DNA of 64,000 bases from an uncultured Flavobacteriaceae bacterium (lineage in GTDB: Bacteria; Bacteroidota; Bacteroidia; Flavobacteriales; Flavobacteriaceae). The first letter of the stretch is position 1. Every line of letters begins with the position of its first letter. This document shows positions 4,672 to 24,751 of the stretch, piece after piece. Below the pieces are notes generated by a model. That model did no database searches. It saw only the letters and a program-made list of their open reading frames with translations, and had not been told where the DNA came from. The DNA lies in NCBI GenBank assembly GCA_938029725.1, contig CALHGE010000005.1, positions 124,001 through 188,000 on the forward strand. Direction: 5' to 3'. The position numbers and the translations under genes are program-made.

Positions 4672-4739
4672 TTGCGGGTTTTACGCTATTCAAATAATAC
4701 CTCAAATACCCCTACCCCCTTGAGGGCGCTATACTAATT

Positions 4740-5396: not shown

Positions 5397-5415
5397 TTCG
5401 TAAAATAATTGTGAA

Positions 5416-6805: not shown

Positions 6806-9800
6806 ATGAAGATTAAGCTACTTAAAAGTTTGCTGGTCATGGGAGCATTTTTATGCTTTGGATTTACGCAAGCGCAGGAAGTAACCGGAACCATTTCTGA
6901 TGCCAGTGGCCCTTTACCAGGAGCCAGTGTTATTGAAAAAGGAACAACAAATGGCACACAAACAGATTTCGATGGAAATTACACCATTGAAGTTGGTAGT
7001 GACGCAATATTGGTAATTAGCTACATTGGCTTCAAATCGGCAGAGATAGCTGTGAATGGCCAATCTACAATTAACACAACCTTAGTAGAAGACACAAGTC
7101 AACTAGATGAAGTTGTAGTAATAGGTTACGGTACGCAAAACAGAAGAACGACAACTGGCGCTGTTGAAAGTGTTAAGGCTGAAGAATTTAATAAAGGGGT
7201 AATTGTAAATGCCCAACAATTAATTCAAGGAAAAACAGCAGGTGTTCAGATTTCTGCAACTAGTGGTGAGCCTGGTGCGGCGGTTAATGTTAGAATTCGA
7301 GGTACTTCTTCTGTACGTGCAAATAACAACCCATTATATGTAGTTGACGGTATACCATTAAGTGGTAGTAACACCTCAGCATCTGCCGGTGGAGGAAATA
7401 ATGACCTTGGAACAGCTGCTCCTATAGACCCTCTTAGTTTTTTAAACCCTAGTGACATCGAAAGTATTGATATTCTTAAAGATGCTTCTGCAACCGCTAT
7501 TTATGGTTCTAGAGGTGCAAACGGTGTTGTACTTATTACCACTAAAAGCGGTAAAAGTGGAAAAAGCACTTTAGAATACTCTACTACTTTTTCTGCAGGA
7601 TATATTCCAAACCAACTTGAATTATTATCCTCAGATCAGTTTTTAACAGCTCAAAACACCTTGTCTGGTGGAACTTTTGTTTCAGCAGGTGGGGCTTCTA
7701 ATAGTCAAGAGCAAATTTACAGAACATCTTTCACACAAATTCATAATCTCTCTTATGGAGGCGGAGGCGAAGATGGTAATTATAGAGTTTCTTTAGCTTA
7801 CCAAGACCAAACAGGAGAAGTACAGGATAATACTTTTGATCGTTTGACAGCAAGAATTAATGCAACACAACGTTTTTTCGATAACAAATTAAAAATTGAC
7901 GCGCAAGCAACAATTTCAAATATCGAAAATCAAAGACCTCCAATTACAGACAACCCTAATGCAAGAGGTGATTTATTATCAGCAACTTGGGGCTTTGCTC
8001 CAGACCAAAATTTCCGTGGATCAGGCTCCGGTTTTGAAGGAGGGTTTTTCCAACCATCTGCTGAAAGAAGAAACCCAGTTGCCTTATTAGAACTTACCCG
8101 AAGTGCATCAAGTAATTTTAGAGCCCTAATAAGTGTTGGTGCTACCTATAATTTTACAGACAACTTAAGTTTCAAAACTTCAATAGGTTTGGATAAGTCT
8201 ACTTCATCCTCTTATTCTGTGCAAAGTCCTTATTTTAACTCTTCACAGACCCTAAATCGTGGTAGAGGCACAACGAATGAAAATGATTTGATTAACTCTA
8301 CATGGGAATCTTATTTTAACTATAACAAAGCTTTTGGAGAAAATGTTTTAGATTTAACTCTAGGACATTCATATCAAGAATTTGTTACCGAATCGCTATT
8401 CGTAGAGTCCGCCAACTTTAATACAGTAGATTTGTTTCAGATGGCGAACAACTTGGCCTCTGCTCAGAACTTTACCGCTAATACCTCACAAGAAATAAAT
8501 GAGCTACAATCGTTTTTCTTAAGAGGTAATTACTCCATTGCTGGTAAATACAACTTTTCTGGTACCGTAAGAATAGATGGCTCATCTCGTTTTGGAGATA
8601 ATAATAAGTACGGAACATTCGGAGCTGTAGGTGCAGCTTGGATGATGTCTGAAGAAGATTGGTTTCCAGAATTTTTCGACACGTTTAAGTTAAGAGCTGC
8701 CTATGGTGTAGTAGGTAACCAAGAAGGTCTAGGTTCGAACCAATTTTCTGATAGATCAAGATTCAATACAGGAAACGATAACGGCGATGGTATTTTCAAC
8801 CCTGGTTCATTGCAGCCCGTTGCTTTTCAGAATCCTGACTTAAAATGGGAAGAAACAGAGCAAATTAATATAGGTATTGATTTTGGAATTCTAAACAATA
8901 GAATAAGTGGTTCTTTTGAATTCTATAACAAACTAACCAAAAATTTTCTATTGCAAGTGCAGAGTGCACAGCCAGCTGTAAATCCATTTATATTCACCAA
9001 CGTTGATGGAGAGATTAAAAACTCAGGGGTTGAACTAAACCTTAATGCAATTGTTGTTGAAGGAGAAGATTTTGGATGGGATTTGAACTTAAGTGTAGGT
9101 TACAATGAAAATATCGTTCAGAATTTTGATGGTGCTATTGATACTGGTTCTATAAACGGCCCTGGTTTGACTGGAGCCTTTGCACAAAAATTAGTAGGAG
9201 GTCAACCTTTGTACAGCTTTTTTGTTCAAGATTGGCAAGGTTTAACACCGGTAACAGATCCAAATAATATTGGCGCAACTGAAGGTGTAAATATTTTTGC
9301 AGAAGGTGGCCAACAGTTTATAGGAAAAAGTGCCCTACCAGATGTTACGCTTGGTTTCACACAAAACATACGTTGGAAAAACTGGGATATGAGTGTTTTC
9401 TTTAACGGTTTATTTGGTCAATATGTGTACAACAACAACAGGAATGCATATTTAACTATAGCCAATTTAGCTCAGGGTAGAAATGCAACTACTGATGTAT
9501 TGGATTTTGTTGGAGCAGAGAACCCTATTAACATTCAAGAGGTTTCAAGTAGATTTGTTGAAAACGCTTCTTTTTTAAGACTACAAAATGTAACCTTAGG
9601 CCATAACGTGTCCTTGTCAGATAATAGTGTATTATCAGGACTTAGAATTTATGCTACGGGTCAAAACTTATTTGTTTTTACAGGATACAGCGGCCAAGAC
9701 CCTGAAGTTTCAGTAGATAGAAATTTAAATAATGTACCTTCATTAGGAATAGATTTAACGGCTTTTCCTAGACCAACTACATTCTCTTTAGGTATTAATG

Positions 9801-9811
9801 CAAGGTTTTAA
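6806..9811 (+). CDS. SusC-family TonB-dependent outer-membrane transporter
   Basis: A 1,001-residue SusC/RagA-type transporter. It has a signal peptide ending near TQAQ, a carboxypeptidase-like regulatory beta domain (about 25-100), a TonB-box region (LDEVVVIGYG) and a plug with the signatures VRIRGTSSVRANNNPLYVVDG and DIESIDILKDASATAIYGSRGANGV (given here as separate conserved stretches of one region). A long beta-barrel follows, ending in aromatic F (LGINARF). SusC forms the energy-dependent channel beneath a SusD lid. The divergent GH65/GH13/LacI genes indicate maltooligosaccharide import. The susD gene follows after 12 bases. Confidence 0.96.
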   Translation: MKIKLLKSLLVMGAFLCFGFTQAQEVTGTISDASGPLPGASVIEKGTTNGTQTDFDGNYTIEVGSDAILVISYIGFKSAEIAVNGQSTINTTLVEDTSQLDEVVVIGYGTQNRRTTTGAVESVKAEEFNKGVIVNAQQLIQGKTAGVQISATSGEPGAAVNVRIRGTSSVRANNNPLYVVDGIPLSGSNTSASAGGGNNDLGTAAPIDPLSFLNPSDIESIDILKDASATAIYGSRGANGVVLITTKSGKSGKSTLEYSTTFSAGYIPNQLELLSSDQFLTAQNTLSGGTFVSAGGASNSQEQIYRTSFTQIHNLSYGGGGEDGNYRVSLAYQDQTGEVQDNTFDRLTARINATQRFFDNKLKIDAQATISNIENQRPPITDNPNARGDLLSATWGFAPDQNFRGSGSGFEGGFFQPSAERRNPVALLELTRSASSNFRALISVGATYNFTDNLSFKTSIGLDKSTSSSYSVQSPYFNSSQTLNRGRGTTNENDLINSTWESYFNYNKAFGENVLDLTLGHSYQEFVTESLFVESANFNTVDLFQMANNLASAQNFTANTSQEINELQSFFLRGNYSIAGKYNFSGTVRIDGSSRFGDNNKYGTFGAVGAAWMMSEEDWFPEFFDTFKLRAAYGVVGNQEGLGSNQFSDRSRFNTGNDNGDGIFNPGSLQPVAFQNPDLKWEETEQINIGIDFGILNNRISGSFEFYNKLTKNFLLQVQSAQPAVNPFIFTNVDGEIKNSGVELNLNAIVVEGEDFGWDLNLSVGYNENIVQNFDGAIDTGSINGPGLTGAFAQKLVGGQPLYSFFVQDWQGLTPVTDPNNIGATEGVNIFAEGGQQFIGKSALPDVTLGFTQNIRWKNWDMSVFFNGLFGQYVYNNNRNAYLTIANLAQGRNATTDVLDFVGAENPINIQEVSSRFVENASFLRLQNVTLGHNVSLSDNSVLSGLRIYATGQNLFVFTGYSGQDPEVSVDRNLNNVPSLGIDLTAFPRPTTFSLGINARF

Positions 9812-9823
9812 TAAAAAAATAAA

Positions 9824-11377
9824 ATGATGAGAAAACAAATTTCAATTAACAAAGCACTCCTATCTATAGGAGCAATTGCTGCCCTTCTTTTTGGGCAATC
9901 ATGTACTGATTTAGACCCACAGTTCTCAGATTCTGTTTCGAATGAGACAGCTGAAGGTGATTTTGCTGGGGTAACTGATGCATCTAGTGCCTTAACAGCG
10001 CTTTATGACAACATTGAAAACTTAGGAGGTCAAGCCAATGAATATGCTCTAATGGAAGTAGCTGCAGAAAATGTAGCTGTTTTGACAAGAGGTGCCGATT
10101 GGGGAGACAACGGGGTTTGGCGATTATTGCACAACCATACGTGGAATGCAGGTCATTTATATGTATTAAACTCATGGAATAGTAGAAACCAAGAGATTTT
10201 AAATGCAACTCGATTTTTAGACCCAGCATCAGCAGTATCTGCAGATGCTGCAGCTCAAGCGCGTGTACTGAGAGCAATCAATATGTTTATGGTACTAAAC
10301 TTCTATGGGCAAGTACCTTTTAGAGGTGTAAACGATGGAGCTGATGTTGATCCTACTGTATTTACTCCTCAAGAAGCATTTGACTTTATACTAGATGATT
10401 TAGATACCGCTATTAGTAGTGGTGCACTTCACAGTAGTGGGCCTGTTGCTTCTGGTGATGGTTTACAATTTGTGATTGGTGAAGCTGCCGCTAGATTTCT
10501 TAGAGCAAAAGTAAATTTAAATTCAGCTAGTATTTTAGGAGATGCACCTGCCGGTGCTATGGATGCAGTTATTGCTGATGTTGATGCTATTGAAGCATTA
10601 GGTTTTGCATTGGACCCTGGAACTGGAGATTATTTTGATATCTGGAGACCAGCAACAAATACCGAGGTAATATACTGGATGAATACGGGTACTGGAAATA
10701 GAGTCTTGAATATGATTCACCCAAATCAATCAGGATGGAATGGTTTTGTAACATTGACAGAAACATTTAGACTTTTTGGAAGTGAAGACATAAATGATGA
10801 TGCAAGATTGGGTATTGCTGGTCCAGATTTCAACGGCTTAAGTACAGGCTATTTAAGAGGGCAGCAACTCAATACTGATGGCACACCGCTAACAGATCGT
10901 CAAAACACTCCATTGGTTTTTGAAAATGAAATGTTAACCAGTTTAGAAATCAACAATGAGCGAAATGGTATTCGCGTTGTAAAGTATCCACAGCGTCGCG
11001 ATGACAACTTCCCTAATGGTGCAACAAATAGTGAAGCCGTTTGGTTGCGATATGGAGAAGCAGTGCTTATGCGTGCCGAAGCAGCTTTAAGAGGCGGCTC
11101 AGGTGGCGACGCTACAGCTGATGTAAATGCACTTAGAGCTAGAGCGGGTGCAGTTGAATTAGCAAGTGTTGCTTTACAAGATGTCTATGACGAGACGAGA
11201 CGAGAACTAAACTCAGAGGCAAATATCGCTGGTGCAAGAGCTGTTCAAATTAGATTTGGAACATTTGCAGATACTTGGGAATTAAAAAATGTTCAAGAAG
11301 ATTTTAGGGTTTTATTCCCTATTCCTGCTAATGCATTATCTTCTAATCCAAATTTGGTTCAGAATCCAGGTTACTAA
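9824..11377 (+). CDS. SusD-family outer-membrane glycan-binding lipoprotein
   Basis: A 517-residue SusD/RagB homologue. The signal ends in a lipobox (LLFGQSC). The N-terminal TPR-like region contains AARVLRAINMFMVLNFYGQVPF-type helices (the motif around residues 145-168), and the C-terminus has the usual EAVWLRYGEAVLMRAEAAL and FPIPANALSSNPNLVQNPGY-type ending. It caps SusC at the cell surface and hands over oligosaccharide. Start: ATG ATG at 9824. It is the last gene before a strong terminator, so the outer-membrane part consists only of SusC and SusD, with no SusE/SusF lipoprotein as in Bacteroides starch loci. Confidence 0.95.
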   Translation: MMRKQISINKALLSIGAIAALLFGQSCTDLDPQFSDSVSNETAEGDFAGVTDASSALTALYDNIENLGGQANEYALMEVAAENVAVLTRGADWGDNGVWRLLHNHTWNAGHLYVLNSWNSRNQEILNATRFLDPASAVSADAAAQARVLRAINMFMVLNFYGQVPFRGVNDGADVDPTVFTPQEAFDFILDDLDTAISSGALHSSGPVASGDGLQFVIGEAAARFLRAKVNLNSASILGDAPAGAMDAVIADVDAIEALGFALDPGTGDYFDIWRPATNTEVIYWMNTGTGNRVLNMIHPNQSGWNGFVTLTETFRLFGSEDINDDARLGIAGPDFNGLSTGYLRGQQLNTDGTPLTDRQNTPLVFENEMLTSLEINNERNGIRVVKYPQRRDDNFPNGATNSEAVWLRYGEAVLMRAEAALRGGSGGDATADVNALRARAGAVELASVALQDVYDETRRELNSEANIAGARAVQIRFGTFADTWELKNVQEDFRVLFPIPANALSSNPNLVQNPGY

Positions 11378-11412
11378 GCATACATTTTTTTTACAGAATA
11401 CGTTTAAGTTTT

Positions 11413-11443
11413 AAAAGAGGGCATTCAAAATGCCCTCTTTTTT
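11413..11443 (+). terminator. Rho-independent terminator after susD
   Basis: A perfect 13-bp inverted repeat (AAAAGAGGGCATT, 3-base loop, AATGCCCTCTTTT) continues into a T run. It begins 36 bases after the susD stop and closes the susC-susD transcript. Confidence 0.9.
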
Positions 11444-11552
11444 ATACCTGCTATTTTACTAGTTTTGACCTAATTCTTAGCGGCAAGAACAGCTTTACAA
11501 TCACCTACCATATTCGCTTATAACGCATTGAAAGAATAATGCACAATTATAG

Positions 11553-11588
11553 CAAATAATAAATGTAAACGTTTACATTTATTATTTG
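11553..11588. promoter_or_regulatory. 36-bp perfect palindromic LacI-type operator (site 1)
   Basis: A perfect palindrome centred between 11570 and 11571, with core TGTAAACGTTTACA and symmetric AT-rich arms (AATAATAA / TTATTATT). It ends 17 bases before the ATG of the YeiH-type exporter gene, a position suited to repression. The core and most of the arms recur at 14220-14261, which ties the two sites to one regulator. The nearest candidate is the LacI protein encoded at 12618-13616. Confidence 0.85.
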
Positions 11589-11605
11589 TAATTTCACTTA
11601 AGACC

Positions 11606-12541
11606 ATGCTTTCAAAACCAGTTACATATTTTATAATTCTACTTGTTCTAATAGCTACATTATTAGGATTCATATCTCCAGCGATAGCTTTGTTGATAGG
11701 TATGATAAGTGGTATGACTCAAATCTCTAACCAAGACCTAGTTAAAGGCAATATCAGATTTCAAAAATACCTATTGCAAATTTCCGTTGTTGGTTTAGGT
11801 TTTGGCATCAATATTCAAGATGCTTTAGTTTTAGGTTCTAACAGTTTCTTCTTAAGTCTTGTAGCCATTGTTCTCACATTCATTATTGCCATCACATTTG
11901 CCAAATTATTCAAATCTGAAAGAATAACTACCTTACTAGTGGCTTCAGGTACAGCAATTTGTGGAGGTAGCGCAATTGCCGCAGTAAGCCCATGTCTCAA
12001 GGCTAATTCGAATCAAACATCGGTTGCCTTAGCTATTGTTTTTCTATTAAATGCACTAGCGCTGTTTATATTTCCGTCTATAGGGCATTATTTCAATCTA
12101 AGTCAATCACAATTTGGTCTCTGGTGTGCAATTGCCATTCATGATACCAGTTCAGTTGTTGGTGCCAGTGCACTTTATGGTGCTGAAGCTTTAAATGTAG
12201 CGACCACAACAAAACTTGTACGCACCCTCTGGATTATTCCCCTAGTCCTCATTCTTTCATTTGGCTCAGATACTGGAAAAAATATTAAATTTCCGTGGTT
12301 CATTTTAGCATTTTTAGCTGCAATGTTATTGAGTTCTTACCTTGTACAACTTGAAGTTATCAATGACAAAATCGTATGGCTTGCAAGAAAATTATTAATA
12401 TTCACCCTATTTTTAATAGGATTACAAATTAATCTGAAACAATTGAGAAAACTTGGGTTTAGCATTATTGGTGTTGGTGCATTAACATGGGTAATCTTAG
12501 CTGTGCTATCGCTATTTTACATTTTACACTATACCGCTTGA
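11606..12541 (+). CDS. YeiH-family putative sulfite/sulfate exporter
   Basis: A 311-residue polytopic membrane protein of the YeiH/UPF0324 'putative sulfate exporter' family. Most of the sequence is hydrophobic helices. The family landmarks GTAICGGSAIAAVSP (about 114-128) and AIAIHDTSSVVGASALYG (about 175-192) are clear. Biochemical evidence for this family is limited, and export of sulfite or sulfate is the usual proposal. Here it lies under the same kind of operator as a sulfonate-type monooxygenase 4 kb away, which supports sulfite/sulfate efflux as its job. It is followed by the LacI gene after 76 bases. Confidence 0.85.
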   Translation: MLSKPVTYFIILLVLIATLLGFISPAIALLIGMISGMTQISNQDLVKGNIRFQKYLLQISVVGLGFGINIQDALVLGSNSFFLSLVAIVLTFIIAITFAKLFKSERITTLLVASGTAICGGSAIAAVSPCLKANSNQTSVALAIVFLLNALALFIFPSIGHYFNLSQSQFGLWCAIAIHDTSSVVGASALYGAEALNVATTTKLVRTLWIIPLVLILSFGSDTGKNIKFPWFILAFLAAMLLSSYLVQLEVINDKIVWLARKLLIFTLFLIGLQINLKQLRKLGFSIIGVGALTWVILAVLSLFYILHYTA

Positions 12542-12617
12542 TTTTTATTAAATAATCTTTATAATTTCGCTTGTCTACAACACTAAGATTAGTACTGAAT
12601 AGTTTAAATTGTATTCA

Positions 12618-13616
12618 ATGGCAGGAATTAAAGAAATTGCAAAAATCACAGGTTTATCACTTGCCACTGTTTCTAGGGTTTTAAACAATAGCACCCTAGT
12701 ATCGGCAAAAGCGAAAAAAAAAGTACTAGAAGCCGCACACAAAATTGATTATCGCCCAAATATGGCAGCCGTAGCTCTCAGAAGTGGTAGAAGTAAAATT
12801 ATTGGTGTTTTAGTACCTGAGATAAATAATAATTTTTTCAGTAGTATCATTAATGGTATTGAAAAAAAAATGAGTGATTCGGGTTATAACATTATCATTG
12901 CTCAATCACATGATTCAGTATCAGAAGAGTCTAATGCTCTTAAGTCCTTTATGAAACTGCAATTAGATGGTATATTATTATCCGCCTCTGAGGAAATGAC
13001 AAAGGCTACATTCTTAAAAAACCTCAAAGACCTAGATGTGCCCTTAGTTTTTTTTGACAGAGTGCCCAATATTTCTCCCATTAACTCGGTGATTTTAAAT
13101 GATTTTAAAGGGGCCGTTATTGCAACTGAACATCTAATACATAATGGGTGTAATCATATTGTGCATATTTCTGGCAATCAAAATATTTCCATTTTCAAAC
13201 GTAGAAAAGAAGGTTTTCTAGCTGCTTTGCAAGAAAATAATCTAAGCACCAACAAGGCAAATTGTATCGAATTTACTGGCAATAATGACAAAGATCTACA
13301 AAACATAAAGCAGTTATTTATCACTTACCCCGAAATTGATGGTTTTTTTGCTCATGGCGACGAGTCTTGTTTATATATATTGAACATCTTAAAAATTCTT
13401 CAAGTGGCTATTCCAGGTCAAGTAAAAATAATAGGTTTTGGCAATACTGAGTTTGGCACATTAACAAACCCCAGTCTTAGCACAATTGATCAAAAGTCTG
13501 AAGAAATGGGATTTTTAGCAGCTGAATTATTATTAGATTCATTGGACAGCAAACCAAAAAAATACGCTCAACTAGTACTAGAACCAGAACTGATAGCAAG
13601 GAATTCAACCAAGTAA
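12618..13616 (+). CDS. LacI-family regulator of the sulfo-sugar-type cluster
   Basis: A LacI/GalR regulator of about 332 residues. The HTH MAGIKEIAKITGLSLATVSR is at the very N-terminus, then a sugar-binding domain (KIIGVLVPEINNNFFSSI and IIGFGNTEFGTLTNP). I chose the ATG at 12618 because it places the HTH at residue 1; an in-frame TTG at 12609 gives three more residues. It is flanked by two near-identical palindromic operators at 11553 and 14220 and is the natural candidate to bind them. LacI proteins nearly always sense sugars or sugar phosphates, a hint that the substrate of the neighbouring monooxygenase is a sugar derivative rather than a simple alkanesulfonate. Confidence 0.92.
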   Translation: MAGIKEIAKITGLSLATVSRVLNNSTLVSAKAKKKVLEAAHKIDYRPNMAAVALRSGRSKIIGVLVPEINNNFFSSIINGIEKKMSDSGYNIIIAQSHDSVSEESNALKSFMKLQLDGILLSASEEMTKATFLKNLKDLDVPLVFFDRVPNISPINSVILNDFKGAVIATEHLIHNGCNHIVHISGNQNISIFKRRKEGFLAALQENNLSTNKANCIEFTGNNDKDLQNIKQLFITYPEIDGFFAHGDESCLYILNILKILQVAIPGQVKIIGFGNTEFGTLTNPSLSTIDQKSEEMGFLAAELLLDSLDSKPKKYAQLVLEPELIARNSTK

Positions 13617-13658
13617 AATGAACATAATCAAACTAAGTTCTACCATAGCGATTTAGCT

Positions 13659-14195
13659 CTAATACGCTAAAAGTTGCCTTAATTGAAGATCTAAAGATCT
13701 TTCCAAATCAGCATCAACTATAACATTTTCTTTATCCATTAACCGATAGATGGAGGAAACTGGATTCTTATTTGGGTGTACGTGAACTCCAAGGTGGTTT
13801 AACACATCAGACAGATGGTCCATACCTCTCAGGTTTCCTGCGCGCCCCGAAGCAATGCCGGTCACACAAGCCTTTTTATCCCAAAAGCTTTCCTTAATCT
13901 CTCGAACAGAAATAGCATCTAAAATCAATTTTAAAAAGCCAGGATAACTACCATTATATTCTGGTATAAAAAACCAAAATTTCGAAGAAGGAATAAAATA
14001 GGTGTCCTGAATGTGCTGTACTAATTCAGATTGATCTTTATACATCAATTCCGTTATCACTTCTCCTCCAAATTCAGCCAAATCTAGAAATAGCACCTCC
14101 TCCCCAATCTCCTCTCTAAGTTTTAAATACACATGCTTTGCAAAGTGTACCGTTTTATTGTTCTTCCTATTTGAACCTGAAATAATTGTAATCAT
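13659..14195 (-). CDS. NAD(P)H-dependent FMN reductase (flavodoxin-like fold)
   Basis: A 178-residue protein of the NADPH-dependent FMN reductase family (as in SsuE and ArsH). It has the phosphate-binding loop ISGSNRKNNKT (5-15) and the flavin-binding motif PEYNGSYPGFLK (78-89). It would supply reduced FMN to a two-component monooxygenase. It is transcribed away from the aldo/keto reductase and monooxygenase genes, sharing the palindromic operator at 14220-14261 in the 101-base gap, so both directions are probably derepressed together. It is convergent with the LacI gene, 42 bases away. Confidence 0.88.
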   Translation of the reverse strand: MITIISGSNRKNNKTVHFAKHVYLKLREEIGEEVLFLDLAEFGGEVITELMYKDQSELVQHIQDTYFIPSSKFWFFIPEYNGSYPGFLKLILDAISVREIKESFWDKKACVTGIASGRAGNLRGMDHLSDVLNHLGVHVHPNKNPVSSIYRLMDKENVIVDADLERSLDLQLRQLLAY

Positions 14196-14219
14196 TTTTA
14201 ATTTTAGTGCAAATTAGAA

Positions 14220-14261
14220 AATAAATAATAAAATGTAAACGTTTACATTTTATTATTTATT
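14220..14261. promoter_or_regulatory. 42-bp perfect palindromic LacI-type operator (site 2)
   Basis: A perfect palindrome centred between 14240 and 14241, with core AAATGTAAACGTTTACATTT and arms ATAAATAATA / TATTATTTAT. It starts 25 bases upstream of the FMN reductase ATG and ends 35 bases upstream of the aldo/keto reductase ATG. A TATATTTA at 14264-14271 could be a -7 element for the plus-strand gene, which would place the right arm over its -33 region. The same core occurs at 11553-11588. Confidence 0.88.
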
Positions 14262-14296
14262 ATTATATTTAGCCTATACTTTAAAGAATCAAAAAA

Positions 14297-15187
14297 ATGA
14301 TTTTATCCAAGCATTCCTTATCACCGTTTATAATTGGCACCATGCGATTAGGAAAATGGGGTAGCGATTTCTCGACAAAAGAATATGAAGAATTTATCGA
14401 ATCTTGTTTAAACCTAAAACTTAAAGATTTTGATCACGCCGACATCTATGGAAATTATACTACAGAACACGAATTTGGACAGGTAATCAAGCTAAGGCCT
14501 GATCTAAGAAAAAATCTTAGAATTATAACTAAATGTGGTATTAAGATGAAGACTACAAACCGCCCTGAACATTTGGTTAAGTCTTATGACCTTTCTAAAA
14601 GCCATATTAAAAAATCGGTCGAAACTTCCTTAAAAAATCTACATACAGATTTTATTGACCTTTTACTCTTACACCGTCCAGATTACCTGATGGATTCTAA
14701 TGAAATTGCAGAAGCTTTTACCGAACTTAAAAAAGAAGGAAAGGTTCTAAATTTTGGCGTATCCAACTTTAGCCCATCACAGTTTGAGCTGCTACATTCT
14801 TTTACCCCTCTATTTACGAATCAAGTAGAAATTTCTCTTTTACAGCGCAAAGCTTTTGAAGACGGCACCTTAGACCAATGTTCAAAACTAGGAATTGTTC
14901 CTACGGCCTGGTCTCCTCTTGGGGGAGGACAAATATTCAAAGAGGCACGAACAGAATCAAGTAAAAAAATACAGCAAGTTTTGTCCACATTAGGCATAAA
15001 ATATAAGTTGTCAGCAGATCAAGTCTTGTATGCTTGGCTAAGAAAACATCCTGCGGGGATCGTTCCAGTTTTAGGAACTTCAAAAATTGAACGTATTAAA
15101 ACAGCAATCGAAAGTTTAGACCAAACGCTAACTCACGAGGAATGGTATATGTTGTGGGAAGCAGCAATTGGAGAAGAAATAGCATAA
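14297..15187 (+). CDS. Aldo/keto reductase (candidate 6-oxo-sugar reductase)
   Basis: A 296-residue aldo/keto reductase with the full catalytic tetrad visible: Asp46 and Tyr51 in FDHADIYG, Lys79 in IITKCG and His126 in LLLHRPD. The NADP-binding end is SWSPLGGG-like (about 212-219) and VPVLGTSKIERI. These enzymes reduce aldehydes or sugars with NAD(P)H in the cytoplasm. In the characterised sulfoquinovose monooxygenase pathway an aldo/keto reductase (SmoB) reduces 6-oxo-glucose to glucose, and the present gene sits directly upstream (25 bases) of the monooxygenase gene as expected for that role. The substrate is inferred from context only. Confidence 0.85.
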   Translation: MILSKHSLSPFIIGTMRLGKWGSDFSTKEYEEFIESCLNLKLKDFDHADIYGNYTTEHEFGQVIKLRPDLRKNLRIITKCGIKMKTTNRPEHLVKSYDLSKSHIKKSVETSLKNLHTDFIDLLLLHRPDYLMDSNEIAEAFTELKKEGKVLNFGVSNFSPSQFELLHSFTPLFTNQVEISLLQRKAFEDGTLDQCSKLGIVPTAWSPLGGGQIFKEARTESSKKIQQVLSTLGIKYKLSADQVLYAWLRKHPAGIVPVLGTSKIERIKTAIESLDQTLTHEEWYMLWEAAIGEEIA

Positions 15188-15212
15188 AAATTAAATACTA
15201 AACAATTTAGAT

Positions 15213-16367
15213 ATGAGCAATAAAATACAGATTAGATCTCCGCACTTGGAAGGTGCAGAAGTTTCATGGTTCGCCCCTATTTGCAACGGTGATGACCGTT
15301 ATTTAGGCGAAAGAAATATGAAATATAAAAGCACTTTTGAAAATGCATCTGAGATTGTAAAGACTGCTGATAAAAATGGGTACCGAAACATATTATGCCC
15401 CTCATCCTATTTAGTAGGACAAGACACCTTGCCCTTTGTTGCTGCAGTAGCACCAATGACAGAACAGATTAACCTATTAGCTGCTATCAGATGTGGTGAG
15501 ATACATCCACCAATGTTAGCAAGAACATTGGCCACTATTGATCATATATTAAAAGGACGATTTACCATTAATATTATCTCTTCTAATTTACCCGGAGAAG
15601 AAATCTCCTCTGAGGATAGGTATCAAAAATCTCGTGAAGTCATAGAAATTCTAAAACAAGCTTGGACACAAGATGAGATCGATTATCAAGGAAAGTTTTA
15701 TAACTTGAAATTACCTTCGTTACCTACCAAACCATACCAAAAAAATGGCCCTTTATTATATTTTGGAGGCTATTCACCTGCTGCAGTAGATTTATGTGCA
15801 GAGCACTGTGACGTATATCTAATGTGGCCCGAAACAGAAAATAACCTAAGAACTTTAATGGAAAATATGAGTGCAAAAGCAGCTACATATGGCCGTAAAG
15901 TGGATTTTGGGCTTCGAGTACACATGGTAGTTCGCGAAACGGAAGAAGAAGCGAGAGAATATGCTGATAGTATCATTTCCAAGTTGGATTTGGAACATGG
16001 AAAAAAATTGAGAGAAGGTGCACTTGACGCTAAATCATATGGCGTAAGCAGACAGGCGGAAATGCGTGAAAAATCAGAAGATGACGGTTACGTTGAAGCC
16101 CATATGTGGACAGGTATAGGCAAGGGTAGGTCTGGTTGTGGTGCTGCACTTGTGGGCAACCCTGATCAGATTGTTGAAAAATTAAACCGTTATATGGATA
16201 TGGGAATACGTTCCTTTATATTTTCTGGCTACCCTCATAATGAAGAATGTGAACGGTTCGCCAAACTTGTTCTGCCAAGGCTTAAAACGTTTTCAATGCC
16301 TATTGCCCAGGGTAAGGTTACAGATGAAGAACCTTCATCACCTTTGGCTGCAGGAATTCGCACCTAA
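15213..16367 (+). CDS. FMNH2-dependent sulfonate/sulfoquinovose-type monooxygenase (SsuD/SmoC-like)
   Basis: A 384-residue bacterial-luciferase-like TIM-barrel flavin monooxygenase. Aligned by eye with E. coli SsuD, the functional residues are kept at a constant offset of nine: Arg235 and His237 (LRVHMVVRET), Arg306 (GIGKGRSGCG) and Tyr340 (FSGYPH). LYFGGYSPAA and CDVYLMWPE are also family-typical. The SsuD active-site Cys54 region reads PSSYLVGQD here and lacks that Cys, so this is not an orthodox SsuD. The expected chemistry is C-S cleavage by FMNH2 + O2, giving an aldehyde and sulfite. LacI control and the adjacent aldo/keto reductase point to a sulfo-sugar such as sulfoquinovose. A general LLM-family oxidase on another substrate is the main alternative. 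Confidence 0.85.
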   Translation: MSNKIQIRSPHLEGAEVSWFAPICNGDDRYLGERNMKYKSTFENASEIVKTADKNGYRNILCPSSYLVGQDTLPFVAAVAPMTEQINLLAAIRCGEIHPPMLARTLATIDHILKGRFTINIISSNLPGEEISSEDRYQKSREVIEILKQAWTQDEIDYQGKFYNLKLPSLPTKPYQKNGPLLYFGGYSPAAVDLCAEHCDVYLMWPETENNLRTLMENMSAKAATYGRKVDFGLRVHMVVRETEEEAREYADSIISKLDLEHGKKLREGALDAKSYGVSRQAEMREKSEDDGYVEAHMWTGIGKGRSGCGAALVGNPDQIVEKLNRYMDMGIRSFIFSGYPHNEECERFAKLVLPRLKTFSMPIAQGKVTDEEPSSPLAAGIRT

Positions 16368-16442
16368 AAATTATTTTTAAAATAGTTTTTAATGAACAAA
16401 ACCTTATATTAGAGACTATTAGCGCCTTATTTAGCAACCAAC

Positions 16443-16465
16443 TATAAAAATTCAAAATTTTTATA
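16443..16465 (+). repeat. AT-only inverted repeat downstream of monooxygenase gene
   Basis: TATAAAAATT, loop CAA, AATTTTTATA: a perfect 10-bp stem 75 bases after the monooxygenase stop and about 80 bases before the symporter start. It could be a weak terminator separating the symporter transcript, or chance in AT-rich DNA. Confidence 0.4.
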
Positions 16466-16543
16466 TGGTATTTCACAGGTTGATTGTTAGGAAGGATTAT
16501 CGATTTCAGAAAATCAACTAATTCTAATAGAATACAAAACTTC

Positions 16544-18088
16544 ATGATTGATTTACTAATTGTCTGCGCGTACTTCGCAATTATTTTTGTGACTGCCATA
16601 ACAGGAAAAACCTCTAAGGAAGCTACTGTTGAAGAATATTTTCTAAGCTCGAGAAATTTACGTTGGCCATCTATTGCTTTTTCAACTATTGCTACCAATG
16701 TTCAGGGGTATCAATTTTTAGGCTTTATGGGGTCAGCTTATCTATACGGTCTAGCTCAAGCTAATTTTGAAATTAATGCTATTCAAGGGCTACTATTGGC
16801 CGCTTTTATCTTTGTTCCTATGTACTACAGGGAAAAGATAATTACTATTACACAATTTATAAAAACAAGATTGGGAAGCACAGTCGCTTTATTGTATTCC
16901 GCATCAAATATCCTATTATTTTCTACCATCACCTTAGGAGCTGCTTTGTTTTGGGGTGCGTATTCTGTAGATCTTGTTTTTGGTGATTTTTTGTCATTTA
17001 TACATGAAGACCGATTGATACGAATATCAATTTTGATTGTATTCTTGGGTCTATTTTCTGCAACTTATACTTATTTTGGTGGACTTGCTGCTGTAGTACG
17101 AACGGATGTAATACAGTTTGCTATTTTATTATCAGGAGGAGTTGTTATATTATTTGTAGCTGTCTACCATCTTGGAGGATGGTCTCAATTCTATGTGAAA
17201 ACTGAACATTTGATGCATTTACACTTACCTGCAGATCATCCTAAACTGCCTTGGATTCACGTTTTTGGAGCCTTTTTACTAAATATTAATTATTGGTGCG
17301 CCAATCAATCGGTCGTGCAGCGATCTCTTGCAGCGAGAAGCTTAAAAGATGTACAAATAGGTCTTATGGTTGGTGGCGTCATGAAATATTTCATGGCTGC
17401 AATAATAATATTACCTGGTATTGCCTTAGTAGGTATTTTAGGAGATGGAGGTCTTGCAGATCCAGATTCTGCTTTTCCTTACTTGGTAAACACGTATTTG
17501 CCCGTAGGTTTAAAAGGCCTCATATTATGTGCGCTGTTTGCATCCCTTATGAGTACTGTAGATTCTACCTTTAATTCATTGGCAACCTTATGGTCTATAG
17601 ACATCTATAAGCCTTATATCAACAAAATGGCCACTGATCAACAAATTGTTAAATCAGGAAAAAATGCGATTCTAATCTCATTTGTATCTGGAGTTATTAT
17701 CGGCATCGTATTGTTGTATATTAAATTCAAAGATTCTGGAGCCGCTTTTACTCATACACTGAACGAACTTCGCTACTTTGTGAATTGTGGTATTGTAGTA
17801 TTGATATGTGCAGCGGCCTTTTTAGCAGCACCAAAACACCGCGTGGCACTACTTGGTTTTATAGCAACAATTCCCTTGCATTTTGTATTCATATACTTTT
17901 TTCCAGAAATGAACTATTTGGTAAGAGCGATGTGGGTGATTCTTATTGGGTTTGCAATTGTTATGGCTGGCTCTAAGAGTAACTTTGTGAAAGACAAATT
18001 AAAACCTGAACCCGCTTCCCCGTTATTGGCAAAAGTAGGAATAGGTATGGCTTTATCTCTAGTAGCTTTGCATATCATATTTCATTAA
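16544..18088 (+). CDS. Sodium:solute symporter (SSS family)
   Basis: A membrane transporter of about 514 residues with the many hydrophobic helices of the SSS/SGLT family. The N-terminal helix is followed by the typical EEYFLSSRNLRWPSIAFS segment and TNVQGYQFLGFMGSAYLYG; later come YWCANQSVVQRSLAARS and FASLMSTVDSTFNSLATLW, all SGLT-like. I chose the ATG at 16544 (MIDLLIVCAYFAI) because it puts the first helix at the N-terminus. Start codons upstream would add a polar 20-residue extension. SSS proteins import sugars, sialic acid or other solutes with Na+. It follows the monooxygenase gene on the same strand, so it may import the sulfo-sugar. A role in xylose or glucose uptake with the downstream xyl genes is possible. 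Confidence 0.88.
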   Translation: MIDLLIVCAYFAIIFVTAITGKTSKEATVEEYFLSSRNLRWPSIAFSTIATNVQGYQFLGFMGSAYLYGLAQANFEINAIQGLLLAAFIFVPMYYREKIITITQFIKTRLGSTVALLYSASNILLFSTITLGAALFWGAYSVDLVFGDFLSFIHEDRLIRISILIVFLGLFSATYTYFGGLAAVVRTDVIQFAILLSGGVVILFVAVYHLGGWSQFYVKTEHLMHLHLPADHPKLPWIHVFGAFLLNINYWCANQSVVQRSLAARSLKDVQIGLMVGGVMKYFMAAIIILPGIALVGILGDGGLADPDSAFPYLVNTYLPVGLKGLILCALFASLMSTVDSTFNSLATLWSIDIYKPYINKMATDQQIVKSGKNAILISFVSGVIIGIVLLYIKFKDSGAAFTHTLNELRYFVNCGIVVLICAAAFLAAPKHRVALLGFIATIPLHFVFIYFFPEMNYLVRAMWVILIGFAIVMAGSKSNFVKDKLKPEPASPLLAKVGIGMALSLVALHIIFH

Positions 18089-18313: not shown

Positions 18314-19798
18314 ATGTTTTCCATTGGTTATGATATTGGTAGTTCTTCAATAAAGGCAGCTTTAGTTGAAACATCAACTGGCAGAAGTATTGCAGTTGTA
18401 AACGAGCCTAAAACGGAAATGAAAATGCTAGCCCTTCATAACGGCTGGGCTGAGCAAAACCCTGATGACTGGTGGTCACATATTTGTGCTGCCACAAAAA
18501 GACTTCTCAAAGAAAATAATATTGAGTCTGCCGCTATTACTGGTATAGGAATAGCGTACCAAATGCACGGTTTAGTAGTTGTTGATAAAAATGGAAAATC
18601 GCTACGGAATTCAATTATCTGGTGCGATAGTCGTGCAGTAGAAATTGGCCAAAAAGCCTTCGATGCGCTAGGAAATGAGGAATGCGCTGAAACCCTATTG
18701 AATTCTCCAGGGAATTTTACCGCTTCTAAATTGAAATGGGTTAAAGAAAATGAGCCCAAAATCTATAGTAAAATTACTAAATTCATGCTCCCTGGAGACT
18801 ATATTTCCTTTAAACTAAGTGGTGAAATAGGCTCTACCATTTCTGGGTTATCTGAAGGGATTTTTTGGAATTTTAAAACAAATACAACTGCAAAGAACTT
18901 ATTAGAATATTATGGAATCAGCAAAGAACTTATCCCCGATATAGTTGATACATTTTCAGTTCAAGCTAGAGTTTCAGAGAAAGGCGCATCGGAATCTGGG
19001 TTATCTATTGGCACTCCAATTCTATACCGCGCTGGAGACCAGCCTAACAATGCACTTTCACTAAATGTATTCAATCCTGGAGAAGTTGCTGCTACAGGTG
19101 GCACATCTGGCGTAGTCTATGCCATAACCAAAAATTTATCAAGCAAAGAAAGTATGCGTGTCAATAATTTTGCCCACGTGAATTATAACAAATCGAATAT
19201 TCGAATTGGAAAATTACTATGCATTAACGGAGCAGGCATTCAATACCGATGGTTGCTAAATAATTTAGACCTTACCGATTACGACGAAATGAATGGTTTG
19301 GCTGATTCCGTACCTATCGGTTCAGACGGTGTATTAATTCATCCTTTCGGAAATGGTTCTGAACGAATGCTGAACAACAAAAGACTAGGTACTCAGATAT
19401 CGAGAATTAATCTAAACAATCATAAGAAGGCACACCTGTGTAGAGCTGCACTAGAGGGTATTGCCTTCTCATTTGTTTATGGCATGGAAATCATGACCAC
19501 GGATAAAATAACGCCCACAGTCATACGTGCAGGAAATGACAATCTCTTTCGTTCTGAAATTTTCTCAAAAACAGTTGCAACATTAATCGACCAAGAAATA
19601 GAAATATATAATACTACTGGAGCAATTGGAGCAGCTCGAGCCTGCCAACTTCATACCGGTGATTTTGAAACTTTTGGTAAGCAAATAATACAGAATGATT
19701 ACGTCATGGGCTTTAAGCCATCTAAGAATAAAGAAGCCTATTCAAAGGCCTATCAAAGATGGAAAAGTGAACTAGAACATCTTTTAAAAAATAACTAA
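18314..19798 (+). CDS. xylB: Xylulokinase
   Basis: A 494-residue FGGY-family carbohydrate kinase that phosphorylates D-xylulose to xylulose-5-phosphate. The N-terminal ATPase-fold motif [14 protein letters not shown], the MHG segment ([13 protein letters not shown]), [21 protein letters not shown] and [10 protein letters not shown] with the catalytic-base Asp are all xylulokinase-like, and [11 protein letters not shown] is the phosphate-binding turn. Length fits the family. The xylA start follows one base after its stop, so the pair is one transcriptional and probably translationally coupled unit for xylose use. No xylose transporter or XylR regulator is next to it, except possibly the SSS symporter upstream. 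Confidence 0.94.
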
Positions 19799-19799
19799 T

Positions 19800-21125
19800 A
19801 TGGCACTTATTGGCAACAAAGAATATTTTAAGGGAATTGGAGAAATCAAATTTGAAGGAAAGGAATCCGATAATCCTTTAGCCTTTAAATATTATAACCC
19901 AAACCAAACTGTTGCTGGCAAAACTATGCGGGAACATTTTAAATTTGCTATCGCTTACTGGCATACCTTCTGCGGCCAAGGGGCTGACCCATTTGGCCCT
20001 GGTACCCAAAATTTTCCATGGGACCAAGATCCAGATGCTGTTCAGGCCGCCAAAGCCAAAGCTGATGCCGCTTTTGAATTCATCACCAAAATGGGTTTTG
20101 ATTATTTCTGCTTTCATGATTTCGACCTCATTCAAGAAGGTTCGACTTTTACTGAATCTGAAAAACGCCTAGCAACTATTGTAGATTACATCAAAGAGAA
20201 AAAAACAGCCTCTGGCGTGAAATTATTATGGGGTACTGCAAATTGCTTTTCAAATCCACGCTATATGAACGGGGCAGCTACCAATCCAGATTTTAATGTT
20301 TTGGCAAGAGCAGGAGGGCAAATAAAATTGGCTTTGGACGCGACCATGGCACTCGATGGTGAAAATTATGTTTTTTGGGGAGGTCGCGAAGGCTATATGT
20401 CTCTTTTAAATACAAATATGAAGCGTGAACTTGACCACTTGGGGCGATTCTTAGGAATGGCTAGAGATTACGCAAGAGGTCAAGGGTTTAAGGGAAATTT
20501 CTTTATTGAACCGAAACCTATGGAGCCTATGAAACATCAGTATGACTTTGACTGCGCTACAGTAGTTGGGTTTCTAAATCAATATGGCTTGCAAGACGAT
20601 TTTAAAATCAACATTGAGGTGAATCACGCTACTTTAGCCAGTCATACGATGCAACATGAATTAGAAATAGCAGCAGCACACGGAATGTTAGGAAGCATTG
20701 ATGCCAATCGCGGTGATTATCAAAACGGATGGGATACGGATCAATTTCCAAATAATATTGGTGAGGTAACTGAAGCTATGCTGGTATTCTTAAAAGCAGG
20801 TGGACTGCAAGGTGGTGGTGTCAATTTTGACGCTAAAATTCGCAGAAATTCTACCGATATGGATGATGTGTTCCACGCACACATTGGCGGCGCAGATACT
20901 TTTGCCCGAGCATTATTGGTAGCAGATAAAATTATCTCCTCCTCGCCTTACCAGGCATTACGCGAAAAACGCTACAGTTCATTTGACTCTGGAAAAGGGG
21001 CAGCTTTCGAAGAAGGAAAATTAGACTTCAAAGCCCTGTATGACATAGCAAAAAATTCGGGCGAATTAAAACTACAAAGTGGAAAGCAAGAGCTTTTTGA
21101 GAATATTGTGAATCAATATATTTAA
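19800..21125 (+). CDS. xylA: Xylose isomerase
   Basis: A 441-residue group-II xylose isomerase converting D-xylose to D-xylulose in the cytoplasm. The catalytic His106 is in CFHDFDL. The metal ligands of the two divalent-ion sites are recognisable: Glu237 (EPKPMEP), Glu273 and His276 ([11 protein letters not shown]), Asp301 (SIDANRGD), and Asp312/Asp314 (WDTDQFP). The length and the N-terminal extension are those of group-II enzymes. It is coupled to xylB. After its stop there are 298 bases without a gene before the first UnbV lipoprotein. Confidence 0.97.
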
Positions 21126-21423: not shown

Positions 21424-24400
21424 ATGTATAAGGCTTTCTCTTTTTTGATGTTAAGTATACTGCTCTTTTCGTGTAAAAAAGAAAAAGAAAAGCTTTTCAC
21501 CAAAATACCTTCATCTAAAACTGGTATTAGCTTCAAAAATCAACTAGACCGAAAACCAGAACTAAACATACTCAATTATTTATACTACTACAACGGTGCT
21601 GGTGTAGTTGCTGCAGATTTCAATAACGACGAGCTCATTGATCTATATTTCACTTCGAATCAAGGAGCCGATAAATTGTATTTGAACCAAGGAGCATTGA
21701 AATTTAAAGATGTAACGGAGAAGGCTAAAATTCAAAACTATGGTGATTGGACAACTGGCGCAACTCACGTCGATATAAATAATGACGGCTTATTAGACAT
21801 CTATGTGTGTAAAGTAGGTGATTACAAACATATAAAAGGAAAGAACTTGCTTTTCGTCAACCAAGGAATTGGAGCAAACGGCATTCCTTCTTTTAAGGAG
21901 GAAGCCGCACGCTATGGGCTTGATTTTTCAGGATTTTCAACACAAGCCGCATTTTTTGATTATGACCTAGACGGAGATCTAGATATGTATCTGCTAAATC
22001 ATTCCGTTCACCCTAACAGAACCTACGGAAAAGGCTCTCAACGCATGGAAGTAGATTCACTTTCAGGAGACCGAATCTATACGAACCACAATGGAAAATT
22101 TATCGACACAAGTTCGAAAACCGGTATATTTCAAGGAAAAATAGGCTATGGCCTTGGTATTGGAATAAGTGACATCAACAATGATGGCTATCCGGATATA
22201 TATATCGGAAATGACTTTTTTGAAAACGATTATCTATACATCAATCAAAAAGACGGAACGTTTGCAGATGTTATTTCATCGGACGAAACCATATTAGGGC
22301 ACACTACCCACTTTTCAATGGGCAATGACTTGGCAGACATTAATAACGACGGACATACAGATATTATATCTTTAGACATGTTGCCGGAAGATCTAGAAAC
22401 TTATAAAACTTCAGGTTCAGAATATGCTTACCCTACCTACCAATACTATTTAAAAAATGGATACCGACCCCAGTACATACAAAATACCTTGCATCTAAAT
22501 CTAGGCAATGGCAATTTTAGTGAGATCGCTTCGCTTGCCGGCATTTCAGCAACAGAATGGTCTTGGGGGCCTTTATTTGCTGACTATGACAATGACGGCC
22601 TTAAAGATCTGTTTATTTCTAACGGCATCAAAGGCGCAACCAATGATATGGATTTCATCAACTTCATTGCAAATGAAAAAATACAGAAAAGAATAAACCA
22701 AGGAATGTTGAAAGAAGATAAGACGTTCATTGACGAATTACCAGAAAAGAAAGTATCAAACTATTTCTTTAAAAATAATGGAGATCTCACCTTTACCAAT
22801 GTAACAGAAAAATGGTTCCAAAAAGAAAATTCATTCAGTAACGGCTGTACTTATGCCGATTTAGATAATGATGGAGATTTAGATATCATAGTAAATAATG
22901 TAAATGAGGAAGCACATATTTTAGAAAATAGATCCACTAATTATAACAAAAACCATTACTTAAAACTAGAGTTCAAAGGCTCAAAAAGCAATAATTTAGG
23001 TATTGGCGCAAAGGTTATTGCTTATGCATCTGGCTCAAAAATAGTGCAGGAAAACTATAGTTCAAGAGGTTATTTGTCTTCTGTTCCGCCATCAATTCAC
23101 CTGGGTATTGGCACAGACTCTATCCTAGATTCGATTCAAGTCATATGGCCTGGCGGAAAGTATCAAAAGATAAAATCAATACTCACTGACCAAAATTTAG
23201 TGTTCGATATTAAAAATGCAAAGGGCCATCATTATCAAGAACAAAAATTAGAAATCAGAAACCACCTTACCGCTGTTGATAGCGTGTTGAATTTTAAACA
23301 CAATGACATTTCGACTATAGAATTTAACAGAGACCCCCTAGTTCCATATACTACAAGCAATGAAGGCCCTGATATTTCTGTAGCTGACATCAATAAAGAT
23401 GGCCTCCAAGATATTTTTATAAGCGGCGCTAAGAGACAATCTTCTATGTTGTTTGTGCAGCATATATCAGGTTCATTTTCGCCTTTACAAGAAAATTTGT
23501 TTGAAAAGGATGCTATTAACGAAGACACTTCTCATGTTTTTTTTGATGCTAATGGCGACGGTACCTTAGACATATTGGTGACAAGTGGCGGCAACGAATA
23601 TAAAAACGGAAAACAATTACAACCAAGACTTTATATTAATCAAGATGGTGTTTATCAAAAGGATGAGGATCAATTTAAAGATGTCACAATAAATGCATCT
23701 AAAGTAGACGCTGTAGACTTTGACAACGATGGCGATTTGGACATTATGATATCCTCAGACCAAATACCATGGAAATTTGGAATAACACCGCAACACTATT
23801 TTTTTAAAAATGACGGAAAAGGCAGCTTTATAGATAGCACGAAGCAACTAGGCAAAGCTTTTCAAAATATAGGAAATATAAAAGATTTTGTTTGGATTGA
23901 TATTAATAATAACGGCTACAGAGACCTTATAGCCGTTGGACATTGGATGGCAATTTCTGTTTTTATAAACAATGGTGAAACTTTAGAAGTTCAAAAAAAT
24001 AATGGCCTAAATAACACCCACGGCTGGTGGAATACACTTGCTGTAGAAGATTTTGACAATGATGGCGATATTGACATAGTAGCAGGAAACTGGGGCGCAA
24101 ATAGCAAATTTAAAGCATCAGAAAACGAACCAGTTCAGCTTTATAGTTATGATTTTGATAGCAACGGCACAATAGAACCTCTAGTTACTCTTTTTCATAA
24201 GAACATAGAAACTCCATTTTCATCGAAAGACGAACTAACCAAGCAAATACCCTTTTTAAATAAAAAATACCTTTCCTATAAAGATTTTTCAAAAGCGACG
24301 ATAAAAGATCTTTTTTCATCTGAAAAATTAAAAAACTCAGTACAAAAAAAAGTGTATGAATTAAGGAGTAGTTACTACGAAAACGATGGAGCTGGTAATT

Positions 24401-24720: not shown

Positions 24721-24751
24721 AAACATTTAATAAAATGATTTAAACTAACAG

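Follow-up and report, generated by a model that had tools for sequence, protein, structure and literature searches.

Sulfoquinovose (SQ) is produced on the scale of ten billion tons per year (PMC10755693). An oxygen-dependent route that releases sulfite is listed for the alpha- and beta-Proteobacteria in a 2026 review (PMC12890257), and the sulfolytic SQ monooxygenase (sulfo-SMO) pathway is described as largely or mainly alpha- and beta-proteobacterial (PMC9594981, PMC12890257). A survey, also of 2026, extends the list to Actinomycetota and Spirochaetota (PMC13372026). The monooxygenases SmoC of Agrobacterium tumefaciens and SquD of N. aromaticivorans are described as acting on SQ (PMC12890257, PMC12585060). 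Here we analyze a gene cluster of an uncultured, marine-type Flavobacteriaceae bacterium (GenBank assembly GCA_938029725.1, contig CALHGE010000005.1). The window, the whole stretch of DNA analyzed, is 64,000 nucleotides long (contig positions 124,001 to 188,000) and the source genome is 3.8 Mb and 92% complete. A first-pass annotation, made from the sequence alone, had proposed a sulfo-SMO-like cluster at window positions 11553-18088 and knew of no characterized Bacteroidota example. The portions of the sulfoquinovose literature available, PMC13372026, PMC12890257, PMC9594981, and PMC10755693 included, likewise do not report sulfo-SMO in Bacteroidota, although an earlier mention is possible. 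We predict, with a probability of roughly 0.72, that the cluster encodes the sulfo-SMO pathway in a Bacteroidota form. Most likely, it imports a plant- or algae-derived sulfosugar, removes the sulfur with oxygen, and retains the glucose.

A SmoC-type monooxygenase

Each of the six genes assigned to the cluster is an open reading frame at its claimed position, and the Pfam families of all six score above their curated cut-offs. The gene at 15213-16367 (+ strand; PF00296 Bac_luciferase) is predicted to encode a SmoC-family FMNH2-dependent sulfosugar monooxygenase and is the only PF00296 gene found in the source genome. The protein is 57.5% identical to PDB chain 7oh2 and 57.3% identical to 7olf, entries titled as an FMNH2-dependent monooxygenase for oxidative desulfurization of SQ; its identity to the alkanesulfonate enzymes is 32.3% (E. 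coli SsuD) and 36.8% (MsuD). E-values are 1e-147 and 1e-145 against the two SmoC structures and 1e-60 to 1e-70 against SsuD and MsuD. The top structure matches of an AlphaFold model (pLDDT 87.9, 23 sequences) are again 7oh2 and 7olf.

Neighborhoods were compared at 97 loci (numbered L), or 91 without identical ones, some of which are clipped by contig ends. Those taken from the genome-contig search are the best 80 of at least 588 relatives, which makes the sample of loci uneven. After six identical loci were dropped (L023, L024, L026, L029, L031, and L035), a quick maximum-likelihood tree was built from 109 proteins, rooted on SsuD and MsuD (two distant rows) and with two other Novosphingobium rows representing SquD of N. 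aromaticivorans. The SmoC-holding group includes seven proteobacterial SmoC-type rows, two from Chloroflexi, three from Cytophagales plasmids, one from Abditibacteriaceae, and a main Bacteroidota branch of 89 rows (support 92), one of which (L056) is titled only "bacterium". The Novosphingobium/Sphingomonas SquD-type group is its sister against SsuD/MsuD (support 97). The window protein falls inside a set of five rows (99) that is nested in a set of 12 (100). Because both SmoC and SquD act on SQ, SQ activity brackets the window branch, provided that the root is correct. By tree, identity, and fold, the monooxygenase groups with SmoC and not with SsuD or a non-sulfonate family, so that this condition for refuting the first-pass reading did not come true. 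Judged from its sequence, it is a relative of the SQ monooxygenase SmoC.

W195, R225, and R296 of MsuD are all essential residues, and its second shell includes H227 and H10 (PMC8234197). The counterparts of W195, R225, R296, and H227 are kept in the window protein as W205, R235, R306, and H237, and Y340 and H342 are kept too. SmoC, SquD, and the window protein have RSGC as the sulfonate loop, whereas SsuD and MsuD have RGGA or RGGS; the sulfonate-site Trp and two Arg are therefore present together with the RSGC loop. The position of H10/H11 is N25 in the window protein and S, A, or D in SmoC and SquD. The position of SsuD C54 is V68 in the window protein and V or L in SmoC and SquD. We used 14 reference rows (seven of the SmoC group, five of the SquD group, and two from Chloroflexi; the annotation shows no aldo/keto reductase (AKR) gene for two of the 14, L134 and L139). 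Of 38 columns that are fixed in these rows and unlike both alkanesulfonate enzymes, 31 are kept in the window protein.

The two Chloroflexi relatives, which are 70 and 66% identical to the window monooxygenase, each adjoin a Gfo/Idh gene. The best PDB matches of these genes are 8qc2/8qc3 and 8zn9, the last named "Oxidoreductase, putative" (best E-values 5e-66 and 9e-69; the next family is at about 1e-15). Entries 8qc2/8qc3 are GH188 sulfoquinovosidases (PMC10755693). Both genes keep R-x-P-F-L-x-K, with a spacing that fits the Arg/Leu/Lys contacts to the sulfonate published for the GH188 enzyme (PMC10755693).

Other distant homologs differ. The Abditibacteriaceae locus (L120, a metagenome-assembled genome (MAG)) has a SmoC homolog 64% identical to that of the window, a C-D-D-D-F loop, and no adjacent symporter gene. 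The three Cytophagales plasmid rows (L020, Emticicia; L021 and L140, Spirosoma oryzicola) come from Bacteroidota, yet lie outside the 89-row branch as a diverged subfamily in which L replaces the His behind the kept Tyr. In L021, F also replaces the essential sulfonate Arg, and the neighbors are genes for cytochrome c and a SoxC-type sulfite dehydrogenase.

Reductases, symporter, and sulfite handling

Directly upstream of the monooxygenase gene and on the same strand is an AKR gene (14297-15187, +; PF00248 Aldo_ket_red) of the YdhF/SmoB kind, whose product is predicted to reduce a 6-aldehyde. Its top PDB matches are 4r9o (titled "putative aldo/keto reductase", 250 bits), YdhF (238 bits), and 7bby/7bbz (219 bits). 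The last two are labeled aryl-alcohol dehydrogenase in the match table, and we take them to be the SmoB structures. In a careful tree, 28 Bacteroidota-type cluster AKRs form one group (support 96/86) separate from SmoB. A clade of cluster AKRs with SmoB that excludes YdhF-like AKRs is weakly rejected (p-AU 0.046), and one with SmoB and SquF is rejected (p-AU 0.010). A clade with generic AKR rows is not rejected (p-AU 0.161), and the generic parent branch is unsettled. An AKR gene is thus present where the first-pass annotation placed it, and the tree makes the protein YdhF-like rather than a SmoB ortholog. The same role is seemingly filled from different AKR branches.

An AKR ortholog (at least 65% identity) is found in five of 299 genomes of the family, all five with SmoC. 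Any AKR match at E 1e-60 occurs in 142 of the 299, and the remainder are generic YdhF-like AKRs of 39-48% identity. Such a generic AKR is present in 12 of the 13 SmoC genomes that lack the ortholog, against a background of 125/281 (p 0.0008, confounded by taxonomy). It could serve in trans in these genomes.

The sodium:solute symporter gene (16544-18088, +; PF00474 SSF) lies beside the monooxygenase gene, as claimed. It belongs to the SGLT-like sugar branch, and the PDB entries it matches best are sodium/glucose cotransporters. We compared it with what we take to be the sugar-site residues of vSGLT: N, Q, E, N, Y, and K are aligned and kept, with one Q changed to N. The sugar-site lysine is kept in the symporter and is replaced in one of the two PDB entries matched. 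The SGLT-branch matches and the kept sugar site point to a sugar as the substrate, and the protein is probably an importer.

The FMN reductase gene (13659-14195, -; PF03358 FMN_red) may supply FMNH2. The first-pass annotation called it SsuE-type, and this does not hold: the protein scores 30 bits against the MsuE profile (cut-off 212) and 20 bits against SsuE (cut-off 164). The YeiH-like membrane protein (11606-12541, +), a putative sulfite or sulfate exporter, is above the cut-off for PF03601 but scores 126 against TIGR00698 (cut-off 233). In Rhizobium sp. SL42, the sulfo-SMO cluster is followed by a gene annotated as a sulfate exporter family protein.

SorA/SorB-like sulfite dehydrogenase genes lie directly behind the symporter gene in the close relatives L025 and L048-L050, and in L076 from Saprospiraceae. 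In Flavobacterium sp. ASW18X (L051), a SorA gene is behind a one-mismatch copy of the operator described below, which makes sulfite oxidation part of the regulon in that strain. The neighborhood in relatives therefore does include sulfur genes. No SorA/SorB-like genes are in the window, unlike the four relatives with the full window arrangement. The source genome has a SorA gene elsewhere (75% identical), and the small gene behind it resembles SorB by eye.

Two operators and a LacI regulator

The LacI-family regulator (12618-13616, +; Pfam LacI and Peripla_BP_3) is the putative binder of two operators. Operator 1 (11553-11588, no strand) is a perfect 36-bp palindrome in the promoter region of yeiH-lacI. 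Operator 2 (14220-14261, no strand), 42 bp long and likewise a perfect palindrome, separates the FMN reductase gene from the AKR gene, which point away from each other. The two share an identical 20-bp core, as the description of them as near-identical had implied. With up to three mismatches allowed, the window holds two copies of the core (0.03 expected), and none of 100 shuffles reaches two. At one or fewer mismatches, the 14-bp operator center has no further site in the source genome.

The operator scan covered 12 sources: the window, eight loci with a LacI homolog, and three without. A site with at most one mismatch precedes the SmoC unit in all eight relatives with LacI, and the operator is absent before the unit in all three without. 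L051 and L082 also have two-mismatch sites in the interval from LacI to SusC.

Distribution and conserved neighborhoods

SmoC is rare but spread in the phylum Bacteroidota. Seven of 395 phylum genomes have a match at E 1e-100 or better, and three, including the genome of the window itself, have one of at least 60% identity. Among the 299 family genomes, SmoC occurs in 18, the sugar-type symporter in 18, and both in 17 (Fisher p 1.5e-25). The monooxygenase and symporter are also found together in Saprospiraceae and in other marine Flavobacteriia.

In the 91 loci, a symporter gene is within 4 kb of SmoC in 70 and an AKR gene within 3.5 kb in 28, and AKR-SmoC-symporter is a recurrent unit. Near SmoC we also find LacI (8), FMN reductase (6), YeiH (5), and GH188 (2) genes. 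A sulfite dehydrogenase gene is within 9 kb in six loci, once with its own operator copy. The full window arrangement recurs in four other distinct loci, L048 (uncultured Maribacter), L049, L050, and L025. The cluster is real, conserved, and regulated, and the reading that it acts on a sulfosugar with oxygen is well supported.

Some neighborhoods have other genes. In three Flammeovirgaceae loci (L092, L103, and L105), SmoC-symporter is followed by a PF00282 pyridoxal-dependent decarboxylase gene (identified in L092) and a gene for a 1042 amino acid protein. In L036, a GH97 glycosidase gene (10669-12774) is directly behind the SmoC gene, and the symporter gene is on another contig (G290).

Proposed pathway

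We predict the reactions, the substrate, the direction of transport, and the ligand of the regulator from gene content, homology, conserved residues, operator conservation, and co-occurrence. The SGLT-like symporter would import the sulfosugar, with SQ or SQ-glycerol as the most likely cargo. FMNH2 would come from the FMN reductase; with it and O2, the SmoC-type monooxygenase would oxidize the sulfonate-bearing carbon to release sulfite and leave a 6-aldehyde. The AKR may then reduce the aldehyde to glucose, which would enter ordinary metabolism. Sulfite may be exported by the YeiH-like protein; a SorAB-type dehydrogenase would oxidize it in relatives and possibly in the source bacterium, by way of the SorA gene elsewhere in the genome. 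LacI would act as a repressor at the promoters of both operators, with the sugar or a product as the inducer that releases it. The first-pass reading of a sulfo-SMO-like cluster thus keeps its SmoC-type monooxygenase, AKR, flavin reductase, and symporter and loses the orthology to SmoB and the SsuE identity. The sulfosugar may be SQ itself, an SQ glycoside, or a different one, with SQ the likely exact substrate.

Adjacent genes and glycosidases

Directly downstream of the symporter gene are genes for xylulokinase and xylose isomerase (18314-21125, +), close to the cluster in the window and in L049. They are probably not part of desulfonation. Upstream of the cluster is a SusC/SusD pair (6806-11377, +), accompanied by a separate, divergent LacI gene (5416-6486); no operator copy was found at this pair in the window. 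SusD, plus SusC where the stretch reaches so far, remains upstream of the cluster in four close relatives. The region 2305-6486, with a GH65 phosphorylase gene and this second LacI gene divergent to SusC/SusD, resembles a separate alpha-glucoside locus. Genes for large FG-GAP/ASPIC-UnbV proteins (21424-31349 in the window) and SusC/SusD accompany the cluster in the window, L025, L049, and L050.

No GH31 sulfoquinovosidase gene was found in the cluster, in agreement with the earlier statement for the window. The main GH31 gene of the source genome (G000:C12) was considered as a sulfoquinovosidase and rejected as alpha-glucosidase-like (456 bits against the alpha-glucosidase 5djw, 107 against YihQ). 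Beside the Bacteroidota SmoC genes, one GH31 and one GH188 reference gave no candidate, the only match being a Gfo/Idh gene of 24% identity in L107. At one time, Roseobacters were believed to use free SQ and to have no sulfoquinovosidase (PMC10755693), and we do not regard this enzyme as strictly defining for a sulfo-SMO pathway.

Seven of the 91 loci (L051, L056, L071, L118, L121, L125, and L126) have a GH13 oligo-1,6-glucosidase-like gene no more than about 2.2 kb from SmoC, in at least three arrangements and with catalytic signatures that look ordinary by eye. The GH13 gene is behind the FMN reductase gene and the operator in L051 (5769-7418) and L056 (5759-7408) and directly before SmoC in L121, L125, and L126. 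The genes of L051, L056, and L071 (5189-6832) are on the - strand, and all seven are candidate pathway glycosidases. GH13 genes are enriched in SmoC genomes (11/18 vs 33/281), a comparison confounded by taxonomy.

Alternative explanations

Several observations weigh against a standard sulfo-SMO pathway acting on SQ. The loop behind strand 1 is C-N-G-D-D in the window protein and C-x-D-D-Y in 14 of the 14 reference rows (a feature derived in this analysis and not a published criterion), and G26, the G for D, is invariant across the 89 rows of the main Bacteroidota branch. The altered loop adjoins the position at which MsuD has a His in contact with the sulfonate arginine; this position is Asn in the window protein and non-His in SmoC and SquD. 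Because the change lies beside the sulfonate site, a shift in substrate is possible, and the loop is the strongest sign that the enzyme may act on something other than exactly SQ. The order of groups around SmoC in the quick tree is unsettled, with the root on two distant rows, and both Chloroflexi loci are MAG contigs whose binning may be wrong. The AKR is not a SmoB ortholog by the tree test (a weak rejection, p-AU 0.046), and 48 of the 91 loci have a symporter without an AKR within 3.5 kb. No GH31 or GH188 sulfoquinovosidase was found in the cluster or, as far as the main GH31 gene and the GH188 matches go, in the 92% complete source genome, which also has a second weak GH31 match (C10); the best match to a Roseobacter GH188 is 26% identical and not a clear GH188. 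The SorA gene of the source genome has no operator copy at one or fewer mismatches. With the xylose genes nearby, LacI and the symporter could instead serve a different sugar, although SmoC-symporter often occurs where such genes are missing.

The presence of GH13 genes close to SmoC in several loci suggests a pathway in which desulfonation precedes hydrolysis, an order we consider unlikely but the most plausible of the alternatives. SmoC would act on the intact SQ glycoside (SQ-glycerol), the AKR would produce glucosylglycerol, and an ordinary GH13 or GH31 alpha-glucosidase would cleave it, making a sulfoquinovosidase unnecessary. This would agree with the lack of a sulfoquinovosidase candidate beside the Bacteroidota genes, the divergent loop, and the separate recruitment of the AKR. 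However, the window cluster is without GH13, and the best match in its genome is 52% identical, distant, and without an operator. The GH13 genes near SmoC are not one clade in a quick tree, and fructokinase-like neighbors, as for sucrose, are present by eye in two of 13 fetched GH13 regions (L183 and L189). Were SQ-glycerol itself the substrate of the cluster GH13, this enzyme would add a third type of sulfoquinovosidase.

Less probable again is another polyhydroxylated or short sulfonate, such as dihydroxypropanesulfonate or sulfolactate, with the aldehyde made by SmoC handled by the AKR or other enzymes. The loop change and the many loci with a symporter and no nearby AKR would suit this. 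So would a set of six marine flavobacterial loci (L037, L039, L075, L086, L088, and L091) with glycerate kinase and GntP permease genes directly before SmoC-symporter, but the two genes behind the symporter in these loci (c5 and c6, glycosyltransferases by eye) are equally conserved. Synteny among related genomes therefore explains the order, and we rejected glycerate kinase/GntP as pathway genes because the case is weak. In addition, the symporter keeps the SGLT sugar site, both an AKR and a LacI gene are present in the window branch, and a GH188 gene adjoins two of the three nearest non-Bacteroidota rows.

Plain scavenging of alkanesulfonate sulfur by an SsuD-like enzyme, with the AKR, LacI, and symporter as chance neighbors, draws on the shared protein superfamily and a match to TIGR03565 (alk_sulf_monoox) of 276 bits, below the cut-off of 518, but is very improbable and, as to the enzyme's function, largely refuted by similarity, tree, residues, and fold, which place the monooxygenase with SmoC, while SmoC and the symporter go together in 17 of 18 genomes, the operator is shared, and no Ssu ABC gene is among the eight cluster proteins scanned with Pfam.

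Comparison with known systems

If the sulfo-SMO reading is true for marine Flavobacteriia and Saprospiraceae, searches whose markers are a sulfoquinovosidase or close relatives of SmoB would miss the pathway. SmoC with an SGLT-like symporter would be a two-gene marker, the operator is recognizable, and Flavobacterium sp. ASW18X is a named strain with the cluster.

The alkanesulfonate monooxygenases SsuD and MsuD share with the window monooxygenase the fold, the sulfonate-binding W/R/R, and probably the use of FMNH2. They differ in identity (32-37%) and in the loop (RGGA or RGGS vs RSGC), and the E. coli ssu operon is without sugar genes. The Novosphingobium-type SquD/SquF system has the order LacI-AKR-monooxygenase and presumably the same chemistry. 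Its monooxygenase is only 47-48% identical, and it has, as annotated, TonB receptor, alpha-glucosidase or Gfo/Idh, and MFS genes where the window has a symporter.

The closest system is the sulfo-SMO pathway of Agrobacterium tumefaciens (sulfo-ASMO; SmoC/SmoB/SmoA), with which the window shares a SmoC homolog at 57% and an AKR and a flavin reductase in one cluster; the YeiH-like gene has a parallel in the sulfate exporter gene annotated in a Rhizobium sulfo-SMO cluster. The Agrobacterium importer is of the ABC type, and known clusters have an ABC or TRAP importer where the window has an SGLT-like symporter. The AKR comes from another branch, the reductase is PF03358 instead of a "flavin reductase family protein", and the regulator is LacI instead of GntR. 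Finally, no sulfoquinovosidase was found for the window cluster, and relatives have a sulfite dehydrogenase.

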